Both the position numbers and the translations under genes were made by a program. Under the pieces are notes generated by a model that saw only the letters and a program-made list of their open reading frames with translations, made no database searches and had not been told where the DNA came from. A stretch of 64,000 bases of DNA from Terriglobus roseus (GTDB lineage Bacteria; Acidobacteriota; Terriglobia; Terriglobales; Acidobacteriaceae): NCBI RefSeq assembly GCF_900102185.1, contig NZ_LT629690.1, positions 3,224,001 through 3,288,000 of the forward strand, read 5' to 3'. Below, in pieces: positions 13,115 through 58,725 of the stretch (within the stretch, counting starts at the first letter, position 1; the number at the start of each line of letters is the position of its first letter).

Positions 13115-13813
13115 TTGTCTCAAGCCATGCTTTCAAAAAACATCGTCCTCGTCCACGGCGCATTTGCAGATGGATCAAGCTGGTCGAAGGTAGTTCCCCT
13201 GTTGCTTGCTAAGGGATACAAGGTGACCGCTGTTTCAAACCCGCTGACATCCTTCCAGGACGACGTCGCAGCGACGAAGCGCGCAATCGCCGCGCAGGAT
13301 GGCCCCGTCACACTGGTGGGACATTCCTATGGTGGGGTGATCATCACGGAGGCAGGCAACGACCCCAAGGTGGCGAGCCTCGTCTATGTCGCAGCCTTCG
13401 CTCCAGACGCAGGACAATCCATCGTTGACATCAGCAAGCCGTTCCCTCCCCCGCCCGGCCCTCAGAAGGCTGCACCCATCGGTGATGGCTTCCTGCTGCT
13501 CTCTCCACAAGGTGTGGAAGAAGACTTCGCGCAGGATCTCAGCAAGGAAGAAAAGGCTCTCATGGTGGCAGGTCAGCCTCAGACCTCAGGCGCAATCTTT
13601 GTAGCCCAGCCAACCCAGGCCGCATGGCACACCAAGCCATCTTGGTACGTGGTCGCCACGAACGATCGCATGATCGCCCCAGAGCACGAGGCCAGCATGG
13701 CCAAACAGCTCAACGCCACCACCATCTCCCTGCCGTCGAGCCACGTCGTAATGCTGTCCCATCCAAAAGAAGTCGCTCAACTCATCGAGGATGCCGCATC
13801 GGGTAAGCGCTAG
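13115..13813 (+). CDS. alpha/beta hydrolase
   Basis: A 232-residue cytoplasmic hydrolase. Visible elements are the oxyanion-hole strand NIVLVHGAFADGSSW, nucleophile elbow GHSYGG with Ser71, a downstream acid (NDRMIAPEH region) and His in SSHVVMLSHP. The sequence resembles the RutD/esterase EstC-like 'VHGAFADGSSW' group annotated as alpha/beta hydrolase. TTG 13115 is chosen because GGAGGG lies 7 bases upstream; ATG 13127 is the alternative. Repeat element copy A begins 14 bases after the stop. Confidence 0.85.
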   Translation: MSQAMLSKNIVLVHGAFADGSSWSKVVPLLLAKGYKVTAVSNPLTSFQDDVAATKRAIAAQDGPVTLVGHSYGGVIITEAGNDPKVASLVYVAAFAPDAGQSIVDISKPFPPPPGPQKAAPIGDGFLLLSPQGVEEDFAQDLSKEEKALMVAGQPQTSGAIFVAQPTQAAWHTKPSWYVVATNDRMIAPEHEASMAKQLNATTISLPSSHVVMLSHPKEVAQLIEDAASGKR

Positions 13814-13826
13814 AAACACGAAACGC

Positions 13827-14063
13827 TGTCAAGTCCCCGAACCACTCAAACCAAACAAACGAAAAGAAATAGAGCTGGCATGGTATTTCCGCCAACTCAC
13901 TACAATAGAAGTAGCAACAAGATGGGCCGCGCGATGCGCGGCCCTAACTCGTTTAGAAAGACGATTTTGCCTCTAACCCCAATAGAAAGACGATTTTGCA
14001 GACACCAAAACCGTAACCCCAATGGAAAGACGATTTTAGAAAAACAGGGGGAGGGGGTACCCC
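13827..14063 (+). repeat. compound dispersed repeat, copy A
   Basis: A 237-base element that recurs at 50654-50918. Order: a left part starting TGTCAAG, a region containing AAAGAAATA, a 9-base-pair hairpin GGGCCGCGC-GAT-GCGCGGCCC (13924-13944), CTAACTCGTTT, then units containing (A/G)GAAAGACGATTTT at 13955, 13984 and 14024 (spacings 29 and 40), and a G-rich end GGGGGAGGGGGTACCCC (14047-14063). No open frame of gene quality and no transposase are present. It fills most of the 339-base gap between the hydrolase and the radical SAM gene. Confidence 0.85.
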
Positions 14064-14112: not shown

Positions 14113-14152
14113 TCGCTGACACGCCAAAGGCGTCCAGAACGGCACGAAGTGC

Positions 14153-15226
14153 CTAGCTGATCTGCACCAGATCGCCATGGCCGCTGTGCGCGGTTGGCGG
14201 CGTAATCTGCGAGGTCTGCGGCGCGCGCCAGTGATCGATGTAGCTCACCTGGTGCACGCACGAGATGGTGCAGTTCGGCGCGCAGCCCTTCTCCGTCAGG
14301 AATTCCCGCTTTACGTCCTCAGTCGTGTAATCCGCCAGAGGAGTCGCCGGATAACCGCGCTGCTGGCTGCAGTAATGCACCAGCCCGTTCTCGCAGACGT
14401 AGAGGTAGCGTCCACCCGCACGGCAACGCCAGTCGTTCGGCATACCGTTCGCAATGGCTTCCTGGAAGTGGTTGAAGCGGCTGTAGCTGCGACGGGTAAG
14501 CTTGCGGACGCGCTCCCAGACCGTACGCTCCTCGCCACCCAGCGGCTTCAACTGCCCGCTGCCATCGTGAATGATACCGATGGTCGACGAGAACCCAAGT
14601 CCCAGCGCACGGCTGGACACCGTGAACGCATCCTGCGGATTGGCAACACCGCCACCCACCACGGAGTTGATGTTCACATGAAAATCCGCATATTCCGCCA
14701 GCCAGATCAGGCGCTGATCCAGAACCTTGAGCGACTTCTTCGACACGGCGTCAGGCATCACGTTGTCGATGGAGATCTGCATGTGATCAAGGCCAGCCTT
14801 GTTCAACCGCTCAATGCGTTCCTTGTTCAGGTAGTAGCCGTTGGTGATCATGCCGGCCAAAGCACCTGTCTTGCGGATGCGCTTGATGACCTCATCCAGA
14901 TCCGGATGCATCAGCGGCTCACCACCGGAGATGGTGATCACCGTCGTGCCAAGCCGTCCCAGATGGTCAATGCGACGCAGCATCTCATCCAGCGGCGTGG
15001 GCGCGGAGTGGTCGTCGTACTCATTGCAGTAGGTGCAAGCCAGGTTACAGCGCCGCATCGGCACGATCTGCGCCATGTACGGATGACTGGTCGAGAGCAG
15101 TGCATGCCCAATGCCCAGTAGTTCGCGCATACGACGTGTAGCCGCCTTCCAGCGGCGACGAAGCGGCATGGGCCGGTGGCCGGGCTTGAGTTCCAGGGCC
15201 GGAGGTGTAGCAACTGCAGTCGACAT
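14153..15226 (-). CDS. radical SAM protein with C-terminal cysteine cluster
   Basis: A 357-residue enzyme with the 4Fe-4S/SAM motif CNLACTYC (C60, C64, C67) and the SAM-binding GGEP (101-104). The C-terminal part contains more cysteines (CRAGGRYLYVCENGLVHYC and CAPNCTISC), in the manner of SPASM/Twitch auxiliary clusters. Family members include peptide-maturing and hopanoid-related (HpnH-like) enzymes; the closest function is uncertain. It is monocistronic, with a strong terminator downstream. Start ATG 15226. Confidence 0.85.
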   Translation of the reverse strand: MSTAVATPPALELKPGHRPMPLRRRWKAATRRMRELLGIGHALLSTSHPYMAQIVPMRRCNLACTYCNEYDDHSAPTPLDEMLRRIDHLGRLGTTVITISGGEPLMHPDLDEVIKRIRKTGALAGMITNGYYLNKERIERLNKAGLDHMQISIDNVMPDAVSKKSLKVLDQRLIWLAEYADFHVNINSVVGGGVANPQDAFTVSSRALGLGFSSTIGIIHDGSGQLKPLGGEERTVWERVRKLTRRSYSRFNHFQEAIANGMPNDWRCRAGGRYLYVCENGLVHYCSQQRGYPATPLADYTTEDVKREFLTEKGCAPNCTISCVHQVSYIDHWRAPQTSQITPPTAHSGHGDLVQIS

Positions 15227-18462: not shown

Positions 18463-19242
18463 ATGCTGCTGAAAACGCTCTTGCGCGCAACAGTCACCAT
18501 CGCACTTTTCTGCACTGCGACCACACGCGCACAGCAGTCTATGCCACCCGATGCGAAACCCGGCTTTGAAGTAGTGACGGTAAAGCCTGCGCCTCCCGAC
18601 GAAACCCACCAGGGCTTCGACCTGCAGGGACGTCATGTCCTGCTGAAGCGCGAATCCGTGCTGAACATCATCATTTTTGCCTACTCCCTTCACCCCAAAC
18701 AGGTGGTCGATGCGCCCGAATGGGTGAGCACGGAGTTCTTCGACATAGACGGTGTTCCCGACGTGGAAGGCGAACCCAACCTCGTCCAGTATCAGTACCT
18801 GCTGCAACGCCTGTTGACGGATCGTTTCGGTCTGCACATGCACAATGCCAAACGTGACCTCCCTGACTACTCACTGCGCGTCATCCCCGGCGGAATCAAG
18901 TTCGCAAAGACCGCGTGGACCAAAGACAACCTGCCACATCAGGGAGGCCACAACGGTGCAGATGGCCAAACGATGACATTCACCAACAGCACCATGGCCG
19001 ACTTCCTTCTGCTGGGAATACAGCACATCGTGGATCGTCCAGTGGTGGATGAAACCGGCCTGACGGGACGCTACGACTTCGCGCTCCACTGGCTGCCCGA
19101 TCAAATCAAAGCGCCAGAAGGCAATGCCGCTCCCGGCCTTTTCACCGCCATGCGTGAGCAACTCGGTCTAGAACTCAAAGCCACAAAAGGCCCGGTGGAC
19201 GTCCTCGTAGTCGACACAGTCCAGAAACCCGAAGCCGACTAG
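18463..19242 (+). CDS. TIGR03435 family secreted protein
   Basis: A 259-residue protein with signal MLLKTLLRATVTIALFCTATTRAQQ. The mature region shows the family hallmarks: FEVVTVKPA near the start, a block with LLQRLLTDRFGLHMHNAKRDLPDYSLRV, PVVDETGLTGRYDFALHW, and the C-terminal GLELKATKGPVDVLVVDTVQKP. The family is expanded in Acidobacteria ('soil-associated') and has no proven function. Start ATG 18463 is supported by GGAG nine bases upstream. It is one of three such loci in this window. Confidence 0.88.
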   Translation: MLLKTLLRATVTIALFCTATTRAQQSMPPDAKPGFEVVTVKPAPPDETHQGFDLQGRHVLLKRESVLNIIIFAYSLHPKQVVDAPEWVSTEFFDIDGVPDVEGEPNLVQYQYLLQRLLTDRFGLHMHNAKRDLPDYSLRVIPGGIKFAKTAWTKDNLPHQGGHNGADGQTMTFTNSTMADFLLLGIQHIVDRPVVDETGLTGRYDFALHWLPDQIKAPEGNAAPGLFTAMREQLGLELKATKGPVDVLVVDTVQKPEAD

Positions 19243-47941: not shown

Positions 47942-48129
47942 AAGCCGAGTCCCTCTTGCTAGGCAGTATGGGACAGCCCCTAAGGCTTGTCGTGACAAAT
48001 CTCGGCACATGTCCCACTCATGGCACTGCCGAGTGCCACTTATGACGAGGCCCTATCGCAGTCAGGAATGGGGCGGCATTGCGCTAGATATCGGCGTTTC
48101 CGGTACGTCCTCGCATTTGAGATTGTCCT

Positions 48130-48564
48130 TCATATCGACCACTTGTTTGCGCGCATGCACCGTCTTAGTACATAGGAAGCAAAGACGAACGCCATGACGA
48201 GAATCGGATCAAATTTATCCCATGGACTCCCCCCACTATTCAGTTGTGAATAGAACGCGAGTAGGAGATCGATCGAGAGAGCAGCATAAATCCACTCAGT
48301 CAGTCGAGGCACATTGGGAATCAGAAGGCCCACGCCGCCAAGGATGTGGGTCACGCCAATCAGAGGGATGATATAGGCCGGGTATCCGAGTTGCTGATTG
48401 GCGATCCTCCATTCGTCGGGATCGTGGATCAGATATAACCTTCCGAAGTACACCCAGGTGAAGGCGGCGAGGCCGGTTATGACCATCGCGGCTATTTGAG
48501 TTGCTCGACCTGCCCGCGCGGGTTTATCGGTTGTGAGTTCGGCTTTCATATTTGACGTTCGCAT
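48130..48564 (-). CDS. DoxX-like membrane protein
   Basis: A 144-residue protein with four helices. The first includes AAMVITGLAAFTWVYFGRLYLI; later come LIGVTHILGGVGLLIP and LTEWIYAALSIDLLLAFY. This fits the DoxX-like/SURF4 group, whose members are linked to respiratory quinone or thiosulfate processes but are mostly uncharacterised. The start could be ATG 48564 or ATG 48549. It lies downstream of the NmrA-like gene on the same strand, with a 126-base gap. Confidence 0.75.
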   Translation of the reverse strand: MRTSNMKAELTTDKPARAGRATQIAAMVITGLAAFTWVYFGRLYLIHDPDEWRIANQQLGYPAYIIPLIGVTHILGGVGLLIPNVPRLTEWIYAALSIDLLLAFYSQLNSGGSPWDKFDPILVMAFVFASYVLRRCMRANKWSI

Positions 48565-48690
48565 CCTTCTTTTCTTGTTAAATGCTCGGCCATGGCCGAG
48601 CAAGGCAGGAACCGCCGGTCGAACACGAAGCCGCAGTGGTCGCGTCTGGCTGTTCCCGCCTCTAAGGCGCTGAAGCCGCCTGCCCCAGAC

Positions 48691-49563
48691 TTATGACTTG
48701 ACGGCGTTCTGTGCAGCCGCAAAGACATCGCGTGCGGATGTCGTACCTGCTACGAGCTCAGTACCCGGGACTCCGAGAGCCATCCATCCCTCGTTCACGG
48801 CATCGAACATTTCTTCGGCTGGTCCAGTGTGGCCCTTTGGGACGCCGAACTGTTCGAACGTTTCCGCCCAGCCTGCACGAGGGACGGCAAAGGCCTTTAC
48901 GTCGAGTGTGAGGACTTCACCCAGTTGTGAGGCCACTTCATCCGCGCTTACCATCGAACCCAGTTCGATGACGCGATGCCCTGACCACGTCGGCCCGGTG
49001 AGAAGTGTTGCCACTTCTGCGCCGATGTCGTCTGATGCGACCATTGTCGATTTCTGGTTTGTAGGGTTGTAGAAGACCGGCAGTGTTCCGCCCCGGGCAA
49101 CCTGTAAACCGTAAAGAAAATTTTCAAAAAAGCCGCCAGCGCGCACAAATGCGACCGGATAAGGCAAGCTGCGAAGCCCCTGCTCCAGGAGTGATAAGGC
49201 CGTGATCATCCCCATCCCGCTTGTTCTATTCGCGCCCATCGACGAGAGAGCTACCACCCGCGGAGGCACTACTCTGGTCAATGCCTCGACATAGTTCGCA
49301 ATCACGCCCTTTGCCTCTTTGTAATCAGGCGAGGGCGCCCATACAGACGGCAACATAACAAAAGCGCCATCAACACCTTTAAGAGCGGTCGCTATGGCTG
49401 TCGCATCATTCCAATCTCCATCCACCAACTCCACGCCTTGATCTGCCCACTTCGCCGCTTTCTCGCGATCACGCACAAGCGCTCGCACCTGTTTGCCCTG
49501 CTTCACCAGATGCCGCGCAGTGGCGCCGCCAACTTTTCCCGTAATGCCCATGACTAGATACAT
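48691..49563 (-). CDS. NmrA-like NAD(P)-binding protein
   Basis: A 290-residue atypical SDR. The N-terminal dinucleotide motif is MGITGKVGGATARHL (GxxGxxG at about 6-12). Further conserved parts are GVDGAFVMLPSVWAP, VVALSSMGANRTSGMG and VRAGGFFENFLYGL. Such proteins act as redox-sensing regulators or quinone/isoflavone reductase-like enzymes. ATG 49563 has AGGAGA seven bases upstream; the frame to 49698 is not used. It is divergent from a TetR gene across a dyad operator, implying repression by that regulator. Confidence 0.88.
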   Translation of the reverse strand: MYLVMGITGKVGGATARHLVKQGKQVRALVRDREKAAKWADQGVELVDGDWNDATAIATALKGVDGAFVMLPSVWAPSPDYKEAKGVIANYVEALTRVVPPRVVALSSMGANRTSGMGMITALSLLEQGLRSLPYPVAFVRAGGFFENFLYGLQVARGGTLPVFYNPTNQKSTMVASDDIGAEVATLLTGPTWSGHRVIELGSMVSADEVASQLGEVLTLDVKAFAVPRAGWAETFEQFGVPKGHTGPAEEMFDAVNEGWMALGVPGTELVAGTTSARDVFAAAQNAVKS

Positions 49564-49634
49564 GCTCGTTTCTCCTTTTGCCTCGTATTTGGCCGCCAAT
49601 TCAATGAGCGACCTGACGATTAGAGGTGAATAGT

Positions 49635-49688
49635 AACCAATGGTTGCAAAATAATCGGTGGTTTTATAACCAACGGTTATAAAACCAC
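49635..49688. promoter_or_regulatory. TetR-type operator dyads between nmrA-like and tetR genes
   Basis: GTGGTTTTATAACC (49658-49671), spacer AAC, GGTTATAAAACCAC (49675-49688) is a perfect inverted repeat with 14-base arms. Its core AACCAACGGTT (49668-49678) is repeated as AACCAATGGTT at 49635-49645, 33 bases away. A weaker ACCACATTTGGT follows. It sits in the 166-base region separating the divergent starts. Confidence 0.8.
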
Positions 49689-49729
49689 ATTTGGTCACAT
49701 AAAGCGTGAAAACGGACTAAGCTATTGAA

Positions 49730-50410
49730 GTGACATCCACATCGCCAAGTCGACGGGTAGAGCGCAAGGAAAGGTTGCGGGGCGAGATTCTTGCGGCTGC
49801 CAGCAAAATGTTTGCCGATCGCGGCTACGAAGCTGTGACGCTTCGCGAGATCGCTAAAGAGATCGGCTATACCCATGCCGTGATTTATCAGCATTTCCCT
49901 GACAAATGGCACATTCTTGTTGAGTTGAGCCGCGAGACGATCGGGCTGATGGTTCAGAACTTCGACGAGATTGCCGCTAAACACCCTGCGCCGAAAGAGC
50001 GTCTTTTCGCGACTTCACGCGGCTTGATTCAATTCTGCATTGCCCATCCACAACAGTTCCGCAACGTCTTCTTCGGGCCTGAGAATCGCAACGGTGTCCG
50101 CGCCGGACAATATATCAACGACCTTGGCGCGCCGTTGTTCGGACGTTTCGTGCAGCTCTTTTTCGATGTTGCCAAGGAAGAAGGATTGCCAAACAGGGAT
50201 GACATAGTGGTAGCTCACACCTGGTGGTTTTCGATCTTTGGCCTCGCCACGCTTTTCGTTATCCAAGGGGCTGTGCCAGACTTGCCTGACCAGACTCTGG
50301 TGGTAGAACAAACGATCGCAACGCTTTGGGCCGGCGTCCAGACTGTTCCGCGATTGCCCAAGAGCGCAATCCCGAAGCAATCCAGCCGCTCCCGTGCCTC
50401 AAAGCAATGA
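49730..50410 (+). CDS. TetR family transcriptional regulator
   Basis: A 226-residue repressor. The N-terminal HTH domain reads RLRGEILAAASKMFADRGYE, then VTLREIAKEIGYTHAVIYQHFPDKWHIL. The C-terminal ligand-binding domain includes IQFCIAHPQQFRNVFFGPENRNGVRAG and the TetR_C-like VVAHTWWFSIFGLATLFV. The start is GTG 49730. The gene faces the NmrA-like gene over a 14-base-arm inverted repeat that is almost certainly its operator. Confidence 0.9.
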   Translation: MTSTSPSRRVERKERLRGEILAAASKMFADRGYEAVTLREIAKEIGYTHAVIYQHFPDKWHILVELSRETIGLMVQNFDEIAAKHPAPKERLFATSRGLIQFCIAHPQQFRNVFFGPENRNGVRAGQYINDLGAPLFGRFVQLFFDVAKEEGLPNRDDIVVAHTWWFSIFGLATLFVIQGAVPDLPDQTLVVEQTIATLWAGVQTVPRLPKSAIPKQSSRSRASKQ

Positions 50411-50653
50411 TGTTCTCGTTTTGCGCGAAATCACTAATGCACCCATCGAGGCGGAATTCGTAATAGGAAGTCGGCTTATCGTCTTCAAAGGCCGATAACA
50501 TGGGAGGTCGCATCGACAGGATGAAAACCGCTCCTCGCTCAGGTTTGAGAGGAAAGCATTCGGATTGAATTCGCCGCATGCCCCGTCGACTCATCGCCGA
50601 CTTGGAACTTAGTAGCTGTCCCACGCGAAGGCGTCGAGAACCGCACGAAGTGT

Positions 50654-50918
50654 TGTCAAGCCCCTGTCCCACCCAACCCCAACAAACCAAAGAAATACAG
50701 TTGGCATGCTATTTTCACCAAACCTCTAGAATAGAAACAGAGAGAAAGGGCCGCGCAAAAGCGCGGCCCTAACTCGTTTAGAAAGACGATTTTGCCTCTA
50801 ACTCCAATGGGCAGACGATTTTGCCTCTAACTCCAATGGGCAGACGATTTTACAGCCACCCAAAACGTAAACCCAATAGAAAGACGATTTTAGAAAAACA
50901 GGGGGAGGGGGTACCCCC
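50654..50918 (+). repeat. compound dispersed repeat, copy B
   Basis: A 265-base element homologous to 13827-14063. It has the same order: TGTCAAG start, AAAGAAATA region, hairpin GGGCCGCGC-AAAA-GCGCGGCCC (50748-50769), CTAACTCGTTT, then AGACGATTTT units beginning at 50780, 50809, 50838 and 50878 (spacings 29, 29, 40), and GGGGGAGGGGGTACCCCC (50901-50918). It has one more 29-base unit than copy A, explaining the size difference. It ends 10 bases before the manC stop. The preceding 50411-50653 holds no gene I can support. Confidence 0.88.
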
Positions 50919-50928
50919 AACTCCCGCC

Positions 50929-52074
50929 TTAGATCAAATCCAGACGTTGCCGCTTCGTAAGCTCACTTACAACACGCCCAACTTCCTGCGAATGCGCGCG
51001 CGTTGTAATCAGGATCGCGTCGTCGGTTTCCACCACAACCAGATCGCTCACACCCAGCAGCGCAACCGTCTTGCCCGGCGAATAGACGTAATTGCCAAAC
51101 GCCTCCAGATGCAGCGCCTGGTCGCACTCCACAATGTTCCCGTGGCCACGACTTACGCCGCCCTTCGCCATGGCATGCTCGTGCAGAGCCGTCCATGAAC
51201 CAAGATCGTTCCAGCCGAAATCTGCAGGCAGGCAATAGATGTTGCTGGCCGCACCCTTCGCGGAACGTGGCTCCAGCACTGCATAGTCGATGGAGATGTT
51301 CTCCACCTTCGGATACTCGGCGGCGAACACAGCCTCGAACTCCGGCGTTCCGTAAGCTGCGGCAATCGTCTCCAGCGGTCCAGCAACCGCAGGCCGATGC
51401 TCGCGGATGGCATTCGCCAGCGTCTTCGCCGACCACAGGAAGATGCCTGCATTCCAGGCATAATTCCCATCCGCCAGGAACTCGATAGCGCGGTCAATCT
51501 GCGGCTTCTCTGTGAACCGCTGCACGCAGCGCGCTGTCATGCCCAGATCGGCAAACTCGCCTGCGACCGTTCCCTGCTTGATGTAGCCGTAACCCGTCTC
51601 AGGGCGTGTCGGCGGCGCACCCAACACCACAATATTCTCGCCCGCGGCGGCAATCTGCATCGCTGCACGGATCACCTGCTGGAAACGCGCATCATCCGTC
51701 ACCACATGGTCTGACGGGAAGACACCCAGAATCGTCTCCGGCGCGGTCCGCTCCACAATCATGGCCGCCAACGCACAAGCCGGAGCTGTATTCCGTGCCA
51801 TCGGCTCACACAGGATGCGGCTGTGAGGAATCTCCGGCAACTGCTCCCGAATCGTCCCGACCAGCAACCCGTTGGTGATCACCAGGAAGTCATCCGCAGG
51901 AGCCAGCGGCAGCAGCCGCGCCACCGTCTCCTGGATCATGGTCTCCGTGCCGCCGGACAGCGCCAGCACCTGCTTCGCCCGCGACTTCCGCGAGCGAGGC
52001 CAGAACCGTGTACCACTACCACCGGCAAGCACCAGCGGCGTCAGCTTCAGGGACTTCGTGACGGAGTCGCTCAT
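50929..52074 (-). CDS. manC: mannose-1-phosphate guanylyltransferase
   Basis: A 381-residue enzyme making GDP-mannose from mannose-1-phosphate and GTP. The nucleotidyltransferase signature is LAGGSGTRFWP (about 16-26), followed by EPMARNTAPA, FTEKP and NYAWNAGIFLW. The C-terminus ends after the beta-helix region with no phosphomannose isomerase cupin, so this is the short monofunctional form. ATG 52074 lies four bases after the aminotransferase stop, so the two genes are probably co-transcribed. Works with the phosphomannomutase encoded at 55168. Confidence 0.92.
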   Translation of the reverse strand: MSDSVTKSLKLTPLVLAGGSGTRFWPRSRKSRAKQVLALSGGTETMIQETVARLLPLAPADDFLVITNGLLVGTIREQLPEIPHSRILCEPMARNTAPACALAAMIVERTAPETILGVFPSDHVVTDDARFQQVIRAAMQIAAAGENIVVLGAPPTRPETGYGYIKQGTVAGEFADLGMTARCVQRFTEKPQIDRAIEFLADGNYAWNAGIFLWSAKTLANAIREHRPAVAGPLETIAAAYGTPEFEAVFAAEYPKVENISIDYAVLEPRSAKGAASNIYCLPADFGWNDLGSWTALHEHAMAKGGVSRGHGNIVECDQALHLEAFGNYVYSPGKTVALLGVSDLVVVETDDAILITTRAHSQEVGRVVSELTKRQRLDLI

Positions 52075-52078
52075 AGGT

Positions 52079-53290
52079 TTAGGCCAGCCCCGCGAAGAAG
52101 GTACGCATGCGTTCAATGCCCTTGTCGATCACGTCTGCCGATGTGGCATACGAGAACCGCAGATGATGCTCCGTACCAAACGCCTCACCCGGCACGCACA
52201 CCACGTGGGCCTCGTTCAGCAGCCGCGATGCAACCTGTGATGCAGTCGCCGCGCCTTCGCGTCCCAGGAACGCCGAGATGTTCGGGTACGCGTAGAACGC
52301 GCCCTGCGGCACCGTGCAGGTCAGCCCCGGAATGGTGGCAAACCCGGCCAGCAGGCGGTCACGCAGCTTGATGTAGTCCACCTTCATGTCTTCGACGCAC
52401 TGTTGCGAGGCGGTCAGTGCCGCCACCGAAGCATACTGCACCGGCGTGGACACATTGCTGGTGCTCTGCGACTGCAGCTTAGCGATAGCGGCCACAATGG
52501 CCTTCGGCCCGAGGGCGAATCCGGCACGCCAACCCGTCATGGCATAGGTCTTGGACAGCGTACCCAACACCACCACATGCTCCTTGCAGTCCGTGAACGA
52601 CCCACCGCTTACCGGCTTCCCGATGAAGTTCAGGTAGGTGTAGCACTCATCCAGCAACATGTAGATGCCCTTGCGATGTGCCAGGCGGATGATCGCCTCC
52701 ACATCCCCGGCACTCATCACCGCACCAGACGGGTTGGAGGGCGAGTTCAGGATGATGGCCTTCGTGCGGTCGGTGATGGCCGCCTCAATCATGGCCGGCG
52801 TCACACGGAAGTTGTCAGCCTCATTGGCCTGCACAAACACCGGCGTACCGCCAGCAAACTGGATGATGTCCTTGTACGACACCCAGTACGGCACCGGCAC
52901 AATCACCTCATCGCCATGGTCCACCAGGCACTCGATGGCGTTGAACAGGGCCTGCTTGCCACCTGTGGCAAAGCAGCACTCCTCCGGCGTGTAGTTGGAA
53001 CCGAAGTCCTCTGCATGACGGTCAACCACGGCGCGACGCACCTCGGGGATACCCGCCACCGCCGTGTATTTGGTGTAGCCCTTCTCAATCGCCTCAATTG
53101 CCGCGCGCTTAATGTGCTCCGGCGTTTGAAAATGCGGTTCACCCGCGCCAAAGTCGGCAAGATCAATGCCGCTCTGTTTCAGGCGAAGTGCCTCCGCCGT
53201 AATGGCCATGGTGGCCGAAACTTCAATGCGATTAATGCGATCGGAAAAGGTCTTCTTTCCGGCAAGGACTTCTGCGGCTGCTGCGCTCAT
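52079..53290 (-). CDS. class I/II aminotransferase, aspartate-type
   Basis: A 403-residue PLP enzyme. Substrate and cofactor elements: FGAGEPHFQTPEHI, NSPSNPSGAV, DECYTYL and the Schiff-base Lys in GTLSKTYAMTGWRAG (K247). The C-terminal RFSYATS carries the substrate-binding Arg. This is the AspC-like subgroup common in thermophiles and Acidobacteria. Start ATG 53290. It is followed at four bases by manC. Confidence 0.92.
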   Translation of the reverse strand: MSAAAAEVLAGKKTFSDRINRIEVSATMAITAEALRLKQSGIDLADFGAGEPHFQTPEHIKRAAIEAIEKGYTKYTAVAGIPEVRRAVVDRHAEDFGSNYTPEECCFATGGKQALFNAIECLVDHGDEVIVPVPYWVSYKDIIQFAGGTPVFVQANEADNFRVTPAMIEAAITDRTKAIILNSPSNPSGAVMSAGDVEAIIRLAHRKGIYMLLDECYTYLNFIGKPVSGGSFTDCKEHVVVLGTLSKTYAMTGWRAGFALGPKAIVAAIAKLQSQSTSNVSTPVQYASVAALTASQQCVEDMKVDYIKLRDRLLAGFATIPGLTCTVPQGAFYAYPNISAFLGREGAATASQVASRLLNEAHVVCVPGEAFGTEHHLRFSYATSADVIDKGIERMRTFFAGLA

Positions 53291-58648: not shown

Positions 58649-58725
58649 GGCGGTGTAGCTCAGATGGTTAGAGCGACGGACTCATAACCCGTAGGTCACT
58701 GGTTCGATTCCAGTCACCGCCACCA
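58649..58725 (+). tRNA. tRNA-Met (CAT anticodon)
   Basis: A 77-base cloverleaf: acceptor GGCGGTG (58649-58655) pairs with CACCGCC (58715-58721), then discriminator A and an encoded CCA. D-loop GCTCAGATGGTTAGAGC, anticodon loop ACTCATAA, T-arm GGTTCGATTCC are all standard. The 5' G and elongator-type features fit tRNA-Met; a lysidine-modified tRNA-Ile(CAT) cannot be excluded from sequence alone. Confidence 0.93.

Follow-up and report, generated by a model that had tools for sequence, protein, structure and literature searches.

A dispersed multi-box element of Terriglobus genomes that keeps one gene on its G-run side while DNA is exchanged on its TGTCAAG side

The window, the whole stretch of 64,000 nucleotides of Terriglobus DNA analysed here, belongs to a genome (G000) that is complete in one contig of 4,851,966 bases (4.85 Mb). 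Two copies of a compound element, copy A and copy B, lie in it with their TGTCAAG boxes starting at 13827 and 50654, and each has a gene on the minus strand on its 3' side. The features at the two sites are as follows.

13115-13813, plus strand: gene 5' of copy A, alpha/beta-hydrolase-like by reading of its sequence
13826-14063, plus strand: copy A, whole element (locus L019)
13827-13833, plus strand: TGTCAAG 5' end box of copy A
13875-13906, plus strand: bipartite box of copy A (CTGGCA, 20 bp, TACAAT)
13924-13944, plus strand: hairpin of copy A (9-bp stem, loop GAT)
13945-13968, plus strand: unit 1 of copy A
13974-13997, plus strand: unit 2 of copy A
14014-14037, plus strand: unit 3 of copy A
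14047-14063, plus strand: G-run and GGTACC end of copy A
14153-15226, minus strand: core gene 3' of copy A, radical SAM protein (PF04055)
48100-50467, no strand: stretch 5' of copy B that does not align with genome G007 (2,368 bp here, 2,434 bp in G007), ending 186 bp before the element
50626-50653, plus strand: second repeat, CGAAGGCGTCGAGAACCGCACGAAGTGT, abutting the 5' end of copy B
50653-50918, plus strand: copy B, whole element with four units (locus L001)
50654-50660, plus strand: TGTCAAG 5' end box of copy B
50701-50732, plus strand: bipartite box of copy B (TTGGCA, 20 bp, TAGAAT)
50748-50769, plus strand: hairpin of copy B (9-bp stem, loop AAAA)
50770-50891, plus strand: four units of copy B, starting at 50770, 50799, 50828 and 50868
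50901-50918, plus strand: G-run and GGTACC end of copy B
50929-52116, minus strand: core gene 3' of copy B, mannose-1-phosphate guanylyltransferase-like (PF00483, PF22640)

The initial annotation had described the two copies as sharing one order of parts and one stem, with different loops and unit spacings, and we confirmed each of these points where it had placed them. Both copies have the 9-bp stem GGGCCGCGC/GCGCGGCCC, closed by GAT in copy A and by AAAA in copy B, and their units are spaced 29 and 40 bp apart in copy A and 29, 29 and 40 bp apart in copy B. The run GGGGGAGGGGGTACCCC closes copy A at 14063, and an identical run with one extra C ends copy B at 50918. A search of the genome with copy B recovered copy A at E = 2.1e-49, so the likeness between them is not a matter of chance. 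The annotation had also held that neither a transposase nor an open frame was present. No transposase partner was found among the few families searched; mechanically called open reading frames of at least 90 amino acids, on the other hand, overlap both copies. The unit spacings of 29 and 40 bp are not multiples of three. The ends of copies A and B do not form an inverted pair, the only such pair being the internal hairpin in copy B.

The two copies belong to a family of elements of about 237 bp with at least 46 copies in G000, in keeping with the suggestion of a compound dispersed family and more than the two copies in the window. With copy B as query, 49 match rows (40 of 56 candidates scored) grouped into 40 copies, to which five were added through AAAGACGATTTT and one through the box pattern; AAAGACGATTTT itself has 81 exact matches in G000 and none in the reversed control. 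Of the 19 members of the genus searched, seven matched the DNA query; G007 gave 48 rows and G013 gave 47, and in these two we counted at least 40 and 36 copies, respectively. Our locus set comprised 120 loci (45 from G000, 40 from G007 and 35 from G013), all of them matched by the profile and nearly all at full length; one G013 locus, L142, carries two elements. T. roseus (G004) gave 35 match rows with one of its own elements as query, and G005 gave 17. Variants occur in T. roseus and, among the matches listed, in named Edaphobacter records; most rows listed in that scan were unrelated chance matches, and only the Terriglobus and Edaphobacter rows were used. A pattern of two units 29 bp apart that leaves the unit core free matched 26 of 300 genomes of the family, in 12 of 79 genera, with no match to the reversed control among those listed. 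In a draw across the phylum it matched nine of 396 genomes, nine of 44 in the window's family and none of 352 outside it, with one control match. Two G013 contigs, C1 and C5, begin inside an element, from base 13, so copies may break assemblies. The idea of a replication-polar element was set aside, as the 29 of 46 G000 copies that point to the contig start (assumed to be the origin) make a weak signal.

An alignment of 44 of the 45 G000 copies (L059 was left out) and spacing counts over the 120 copies gave the anatomy of the element: CTGTCAAGCCCC; TTGGC, 20 bp and TAnAAT; a free, often hairpin-forming slot; three units of about 25 bp; and a G-run ending in GGTACC. Several boxes at set distances from one another make up the site, and the hairpin in its slot is optional. 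In the 117 copies whose TGTCAAG box was located with at most one mismatch, the first T is kept in 98% and GTCAA in 100%. The distance from TGTCAA to TTGGCA is 47-49 bp in 107 of 112 copies. The spacer of the bipartite box, first counted with 19-21 bp allowed and then again with 8-35 bp allowed, is 20 bp in 108 of the 114 copies having the box, six copies without it being left out. Three units are present in 111 of the 120 copies, two in seven, one in one and four in one; of 232 unit spacings, 114 are 29 bp and 112 are 40-41 bp. End modules around a variable number of tandem middle modules (three units in copy A, four in copy B) make a layout of the BOX type. The slot is mostly about 37 bp and sometimes about 48 bp long, and the distance from TAnAAT to the first unit core is 50-54 in 90 copies, 62-65 in 17 and 73-74 in two, with single cases of 43, 80, 81, 95 and 326, of which 80 and 81 stem from a degenerate first unit that the expression missed.

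The T. roseus group has the same architecture: across 20 loci, the box spacer is 20 bp in 19 (only 19-21 bp being allowed) and the units lie 29 and 41 bp apart. Slot lengths in these loci are 37-39 (six), 47 (four), 51 (three), 55, 58, 61-62 (three), 104 and 109; they do not support helical phasing of the slot, which we keep only as a hint. Searched through G000, TTGGC-N21-TAnAATnGA gave 35 matches, all 35 inside elements, and one in the reversed control; as the strict box is found only within elements, it is not an ordinary promoter. A sigma-54 or sigma-70 promoter was rejected for the same exclusiveness and because the spacing of the box does not fit the consensus spacing of either. Two loci depart from the common plan. 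In L059 (G000, 3338256-3338769) an insertion of about 300 bp occupies the slot, with both halves of the element intact by the profile, and in L033 (G014) the 5' half alone, from TGTCAAG to TAnAAT, stands with a hairpin before a small open frame, without units.

The flanks of the units are common to the family, and the 6-nt unit core is specific to the genome: it is TCTAATTTTT in T. roseus (G004) and G005 and mostly GCAGGATTTT in G009, in the same layout. Over all 102 rows listed for the core-free pattern (a first count had used 57 of them), identity of the six core bases was 0.870 within and 0.391 between genomes, a difference that none of 1000 shuffles reached. On the 73 rows that remain once close relatives are pooled and the G000 group is excluded, the values were 0.808 and 0.314, again with 0 of 1000 shuffles. 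In four locus sets among the 41 loci compared, the G000 group and either T. roseus or G005 have the element on the same side of the same gene, and its core differs between them. The genes are the radical SAM gene of copy A (PF04055) and, by reading of their sequences, a ribosomal protein L28-like gene, a rimO-like gene (G013 only) and a small Cys/His-rich gene. The radical SAM gene adjoins elements also in G007, T. roseus (L332) and G005 (L333). L322 and L029 were rejected as a further shared gene because their adjacent genes differ. In Terriglobus (L011, L323) the element precedes the small Cys/His-rich gene, and at L286, in another genus, a similar small gene comes after CTGTCAAGCCCC, a TTGGCA-N20-TACAAT box and a terminator-like hairpin, with no units.

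The gene downstream of the element ends at it in 70 of the 120 copies and starts from it in 50, and the upstream genes point to it in 73 of 120 (counts of our own simple gene caller, with orthologs counted). Integron cassettes are more uniform in orientation than that. We rejected a 3' UTR of the adjoining gene because 50 of the 120 downstream genes point away from the element. Of the 45 downstream genes of G000, 30 were scanned as proteins and 27 had Pfam matches, including ThiC, GcvT, RuvA, an EngA-type GTPase, biotin carboxylase, IMPDH, QueC, DsbD and methionine synthase domains; no functional theme ran through the genes scanned. Eight of ten upstream genes scanned had matches, namely TetR (twice), PadR, an eCIS core protein, a beta-lactamase-like protein, DUF4435, FtsX and a cation efflux protein. 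Judged from these names and from the flank comparison, the downstream genes are core and the upstream genes accessory.

The element is polar: its G-run side stays with one gene between genomes, and DNA is inserted or exchanged at its TGTCAAG side. We matched the flanks of each element (mostly 1.5 kb in G000) to the element flanks of another genome at more than 400 bits. For the 45 copies of G000 against G007, both flanks matched in 26, the downstream flank only in nine, the upstream flank only in none, different partners in two and neither flank in eight. The corresponding figures were 13, 18, 0, 0 and 14 for the 45 G000 copies against G013, and 11, 14, 0, 1 and 14 for the 40 G007 copies against G013. 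In total 41 comparisons kept the downstream flank only and none the upstream flank only; these comparisons share loci, are not independent and require an element in both genomes. The unit and G-run side keeps its gene whichever way that gene reads. Among 37 G000-G007 pairs, the upstream side had no match or differed by at least 300 bp in 17 and the downstream side in none, and in every one of the 37 the downstream alignment began no more than 85 bp from the element. Against the two-element locus L142, L069 and L105 were without close downstream alignment. In 20-kb comparisons of eight sites, collinearity spanned the gene and the element and ended between the 5' end of the element and about 250 bp before it; at one example site, 4,973 bp in G000 stand against 70 in G007.

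Insertion or swapping at the 5' side is far more frequent than at other gene borders. In 400 kb compared, with 37 indels of at least 300 bp in all, five of the six shared elements had such an indel on the 5' side (four of four tandem, one of two convergent) and none had one on the 3' side. Element-free gene pairs, as delimited by our own gene caller, had one in 15 of 190 tandem, 13 of 47 convergent and three of 48 divergent cases. The indel at copy B starts 186 bp from the element and that at L059 extends into it. Copy A has no indel relative to G007 and has extra sequence on its 3' side relative to T. roseus; its 5' flank is kept in G007 and has no match in G013. Outside this clade the test of polarity is very small: among 15 loci each from G004 and G005, the T. 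roseus group, the downstream flank was common in four and the upstream flank too in three of these, L322 giving an ambiguous double match. At one locus (L028 in G000, L096 in G007, L117 in G013) the element is inverted relative to its flanking genes in G007 as compared with G000 and G013.

We then compared the elements themselves, leaving out 12 divergent or broken copies of the 120 from identities and segments. Orthologous copies had a mean identity of 0.871 (33 G000-G007 pairs) and 0.779 (26 G000-G013 pairs), other pairs 0.74-0.77. For L009 and L061, respectively, 23 and 24 G007 copies were closer than the ortholog. Where the upstream DNA had changed (16 pairs), the two 5' segments of the element were 0.80 and 0.81 identical, against 0.87 and 0.89 where it had not (17 pairs), with one-sided p of 0.031 and 0.015, uncorrected for the five segments. 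In the same 16 and 17 pairs, the two 3' segments were not less alike where the upstream DNA had changed, and the middle segment, which is the slot, gave no significant difference (p 0.22). Breaks fall between TGTCAAG and TTGGC in L011/L094 and L062/L103, and between the slot and the first unit in L009/L092 and L055/L108. In L065/L106 both flanks are kept and the interior differs, and the two flanks of L008 adjoin different elements in G007, as do those of L013. In several swaps, then, new upstream DNA brought a different 5' half and the unit half stayed. Exchange also occurred with no change of the 5' half (L003, L006, L008, L016 and L017), so insertion may be independent of the element.

We tentatively favor the element as a DNA-level junction at which a fixed core gene meets exchangeable DNA, probably bound by protein and shaped by recombination from element to element. 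Exchange takes place, and the element may promote it. Incoming DNA that carries an element would recombine with a resident one, and the element would act as an exchangeable link that joins cargo with its 5' half to the 3' half with the core gene. Exchange from copy to copy would homogenize the unit core within a genome and allow it to drift between species. The one-sidedness might come from a putative protein that binds the units, or from purifying selection that keeps the 3' half beside the core gene. The few families searched in G000 yielded no binding protein, recombinase or partner gene.

A non-autonomous mobile repeat of the MITE or BOX kind, with no host role, which spread in bursts and whose boxes are sites for a transposase supplied in trans and perhaps since lost, is a somewhat unlikely explanation. 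The many intergenic copies limited to one family, the modular build with its varying unit number and the mere four gene sets that T. roseus and the G000 group share in 41 loci would suit such a repeat, as would L087, a copy present only in G007 among the three genomes. L087 looks like a clean empty site in the comparison with G000, with no clear target duplication seen; G013, however, has 117 bp of other spacer there, so the copy may have been either gained or lost, and with L021 no better we rejected it as a clean empty site. Terminal inverted repeats are absent in copies A and B, nearly all copies are full length, and a mobile repeat would not be expected to show one-sided turnover. The 4.85-Mb genome has no rve transposase (no PF00665 match at E 1e-5, six of 14 control genomes being positive), which also led us to reject a Tn7- or Tn402-type transposon end, and none of the nine tyrosine recombinase matches in G000 lies within 6.8 kb of a copy.

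We regard as unlikely that the element is a cis-acting boundary of the core gene (a terminator, an insulator or a regulatory site), with selection keeping the site and accessory DNA landing beyond it. The 3' side is always near the same gene, many of the 27 downstream proteins with Pfam matches out of 30 are housekeeping, and the hairpin, to judge from its sequence, could terminate transcripts leaving the gene. The 70 copies at which the gene ends and the 50 from which it starts would also suit a boundary. No single cis role, however, fits both gene orientations. The downstream genes are without a functional theme, and the internal breaks and copy-like 5' halves would call for recombination in any case.

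The hairpin had been taken as a sign of selection on structure, which the family bears out in part. Among 112 copies of the three genomes (the best of four loop lengths being taken and eight of 120 copies being unusable), at least seven of the nine stem pairs are kept in 62, five or six in 14 and four or fewer in 36, so the hairpin is optional. The 62 stem-keeping copies have 34 different loops, and their 558 cells include ten two-sided compensatory, 11 wobble and 12 broken ones, counted without a shuffle control in copies selected for at least seven pairs and with orthologs included. A separate count found a perfect stem of at least six in 50 of 98 parsed slots, against about 5% in shuffles (22 of the 120 slots were unparsed). 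A structured small RNA or leader RNA, which the initial annotation had offered as one reading, is nonetheless highly improbable: the stem with its varying loops, the compensatory cells and the similarity of TAnAAT to a -10 box speak for it, whereas 36 copies are without the stem, the slot sequence is free and the spacings of the boxes (20; 29 and 40 bp) are the tightest feature, the strict box never occurs outside elements, and Rfam 15 at gathering score matched only a tRNA in the window (58649-58722) and gave only sub-threshold matches in six loci.

Returning to the junction that we favor, a fuller form of it would have the Acidobacteriaceae possess genome-wide, polar gene-exchange junctions, with a fixed unit side, a TGTCAAG side that accepts accessory DNA by element-to-element recombination, a candidate protein that reads the core, and the core as a dialect favoring relatives; we consider this fuller form quite unlikely. 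If it is right, the turnover of accessory genes beside core genes gains a visible, sequence-defined border in a large soil phylum and a testable mechanism, and next to uptake sequences there would be a further motif whose copies change together throughout a genome although some of the sites stay in place. Even if it is no more than a repeat, the family is large and relevant to the annotation of these genomes.

The annotation had placed the element in no described family, and this held: Rfam gave no match at gathering score, and our searches of the open-licence literature of PubMed Central gave no description. We rate the element as a modular interspersed repeat, a kind known from BOX, in a family that we did not find described. 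BOX of Streptococcus pneumoniae, boxA-boxB(n)-boxC, is likewise an intergenic repeat of end modules and a tandem middle module of varying number, present in about a hundred copies and over-represented between convergent genes (PMC3049150). By their description its modules seem unrelated to ours, and it has terminal inverted repeats; in the parts of that account available to us, neither a genome-specific core nor a fixed core-gene side is reported (PMC3049150). The dialects of the DNA uptake sequences of Neisseriaceae, as far as the portion consulted goes, are similar in being a genome-wide motif with concerted species differences that is linked to recombination among relatives, and differ in having thousands of copies (PMC3630211), against about 46 elements of mostly three units here. 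The 81 exact matches of AAAGACGATTTT fall short of the hundreds to thousands typical of uptake sequences. REP/REPIN and tyrosine-transposase repeats are also small and intergenic, and the paper on them, in the sections seen, mentions Acidobacteria with tyrosine transposases and terminal repeats (PMC3733652). Compared by length and layout, REPs, which a published abstract describes as palindromes of 20-40 bp with GTAG or CGTC tags, are unlike the mostly non-palindromic element of 237 bp. In hotspots of horizontal gene transfer, too, accessory genes come and go at set positions next to core genes, and many hotspots are without mobile elements and recombine at flanking core genes; their definition, in the excerpts at hand, rests on gene content and does not involve a DNA element shared at one border (PMC5635113).

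In L153 the elements at 14694-14930 (plus strand) and 18938-19189 (minus strand) face each other about 4 kb apart around the ruvA-side genes, and L154 has the same facing layout, an arrangement common to G000 and G007. A second repeat (GGCGTCGAGAACGGCACGAAGTGC) precedes 20 of 118 elements in the same orientation at a distance of up to 40 bp, L002, L006, L007 and L016 among them. In 18 of those 20 the repeat, which ends in GAACGGCACGAAGTGC, stops 1-3 bases before TGTCAAG, and it has nine occurrences in each 400-kb stretch. Repeat and element could form a composite unit, or the repeat could be a preferred insertion point. The second repeat is also found at 14129-14152 of the window, between copy A and the radical SAM gene, where G007 has it as well and T. 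roseus and G005 do not.
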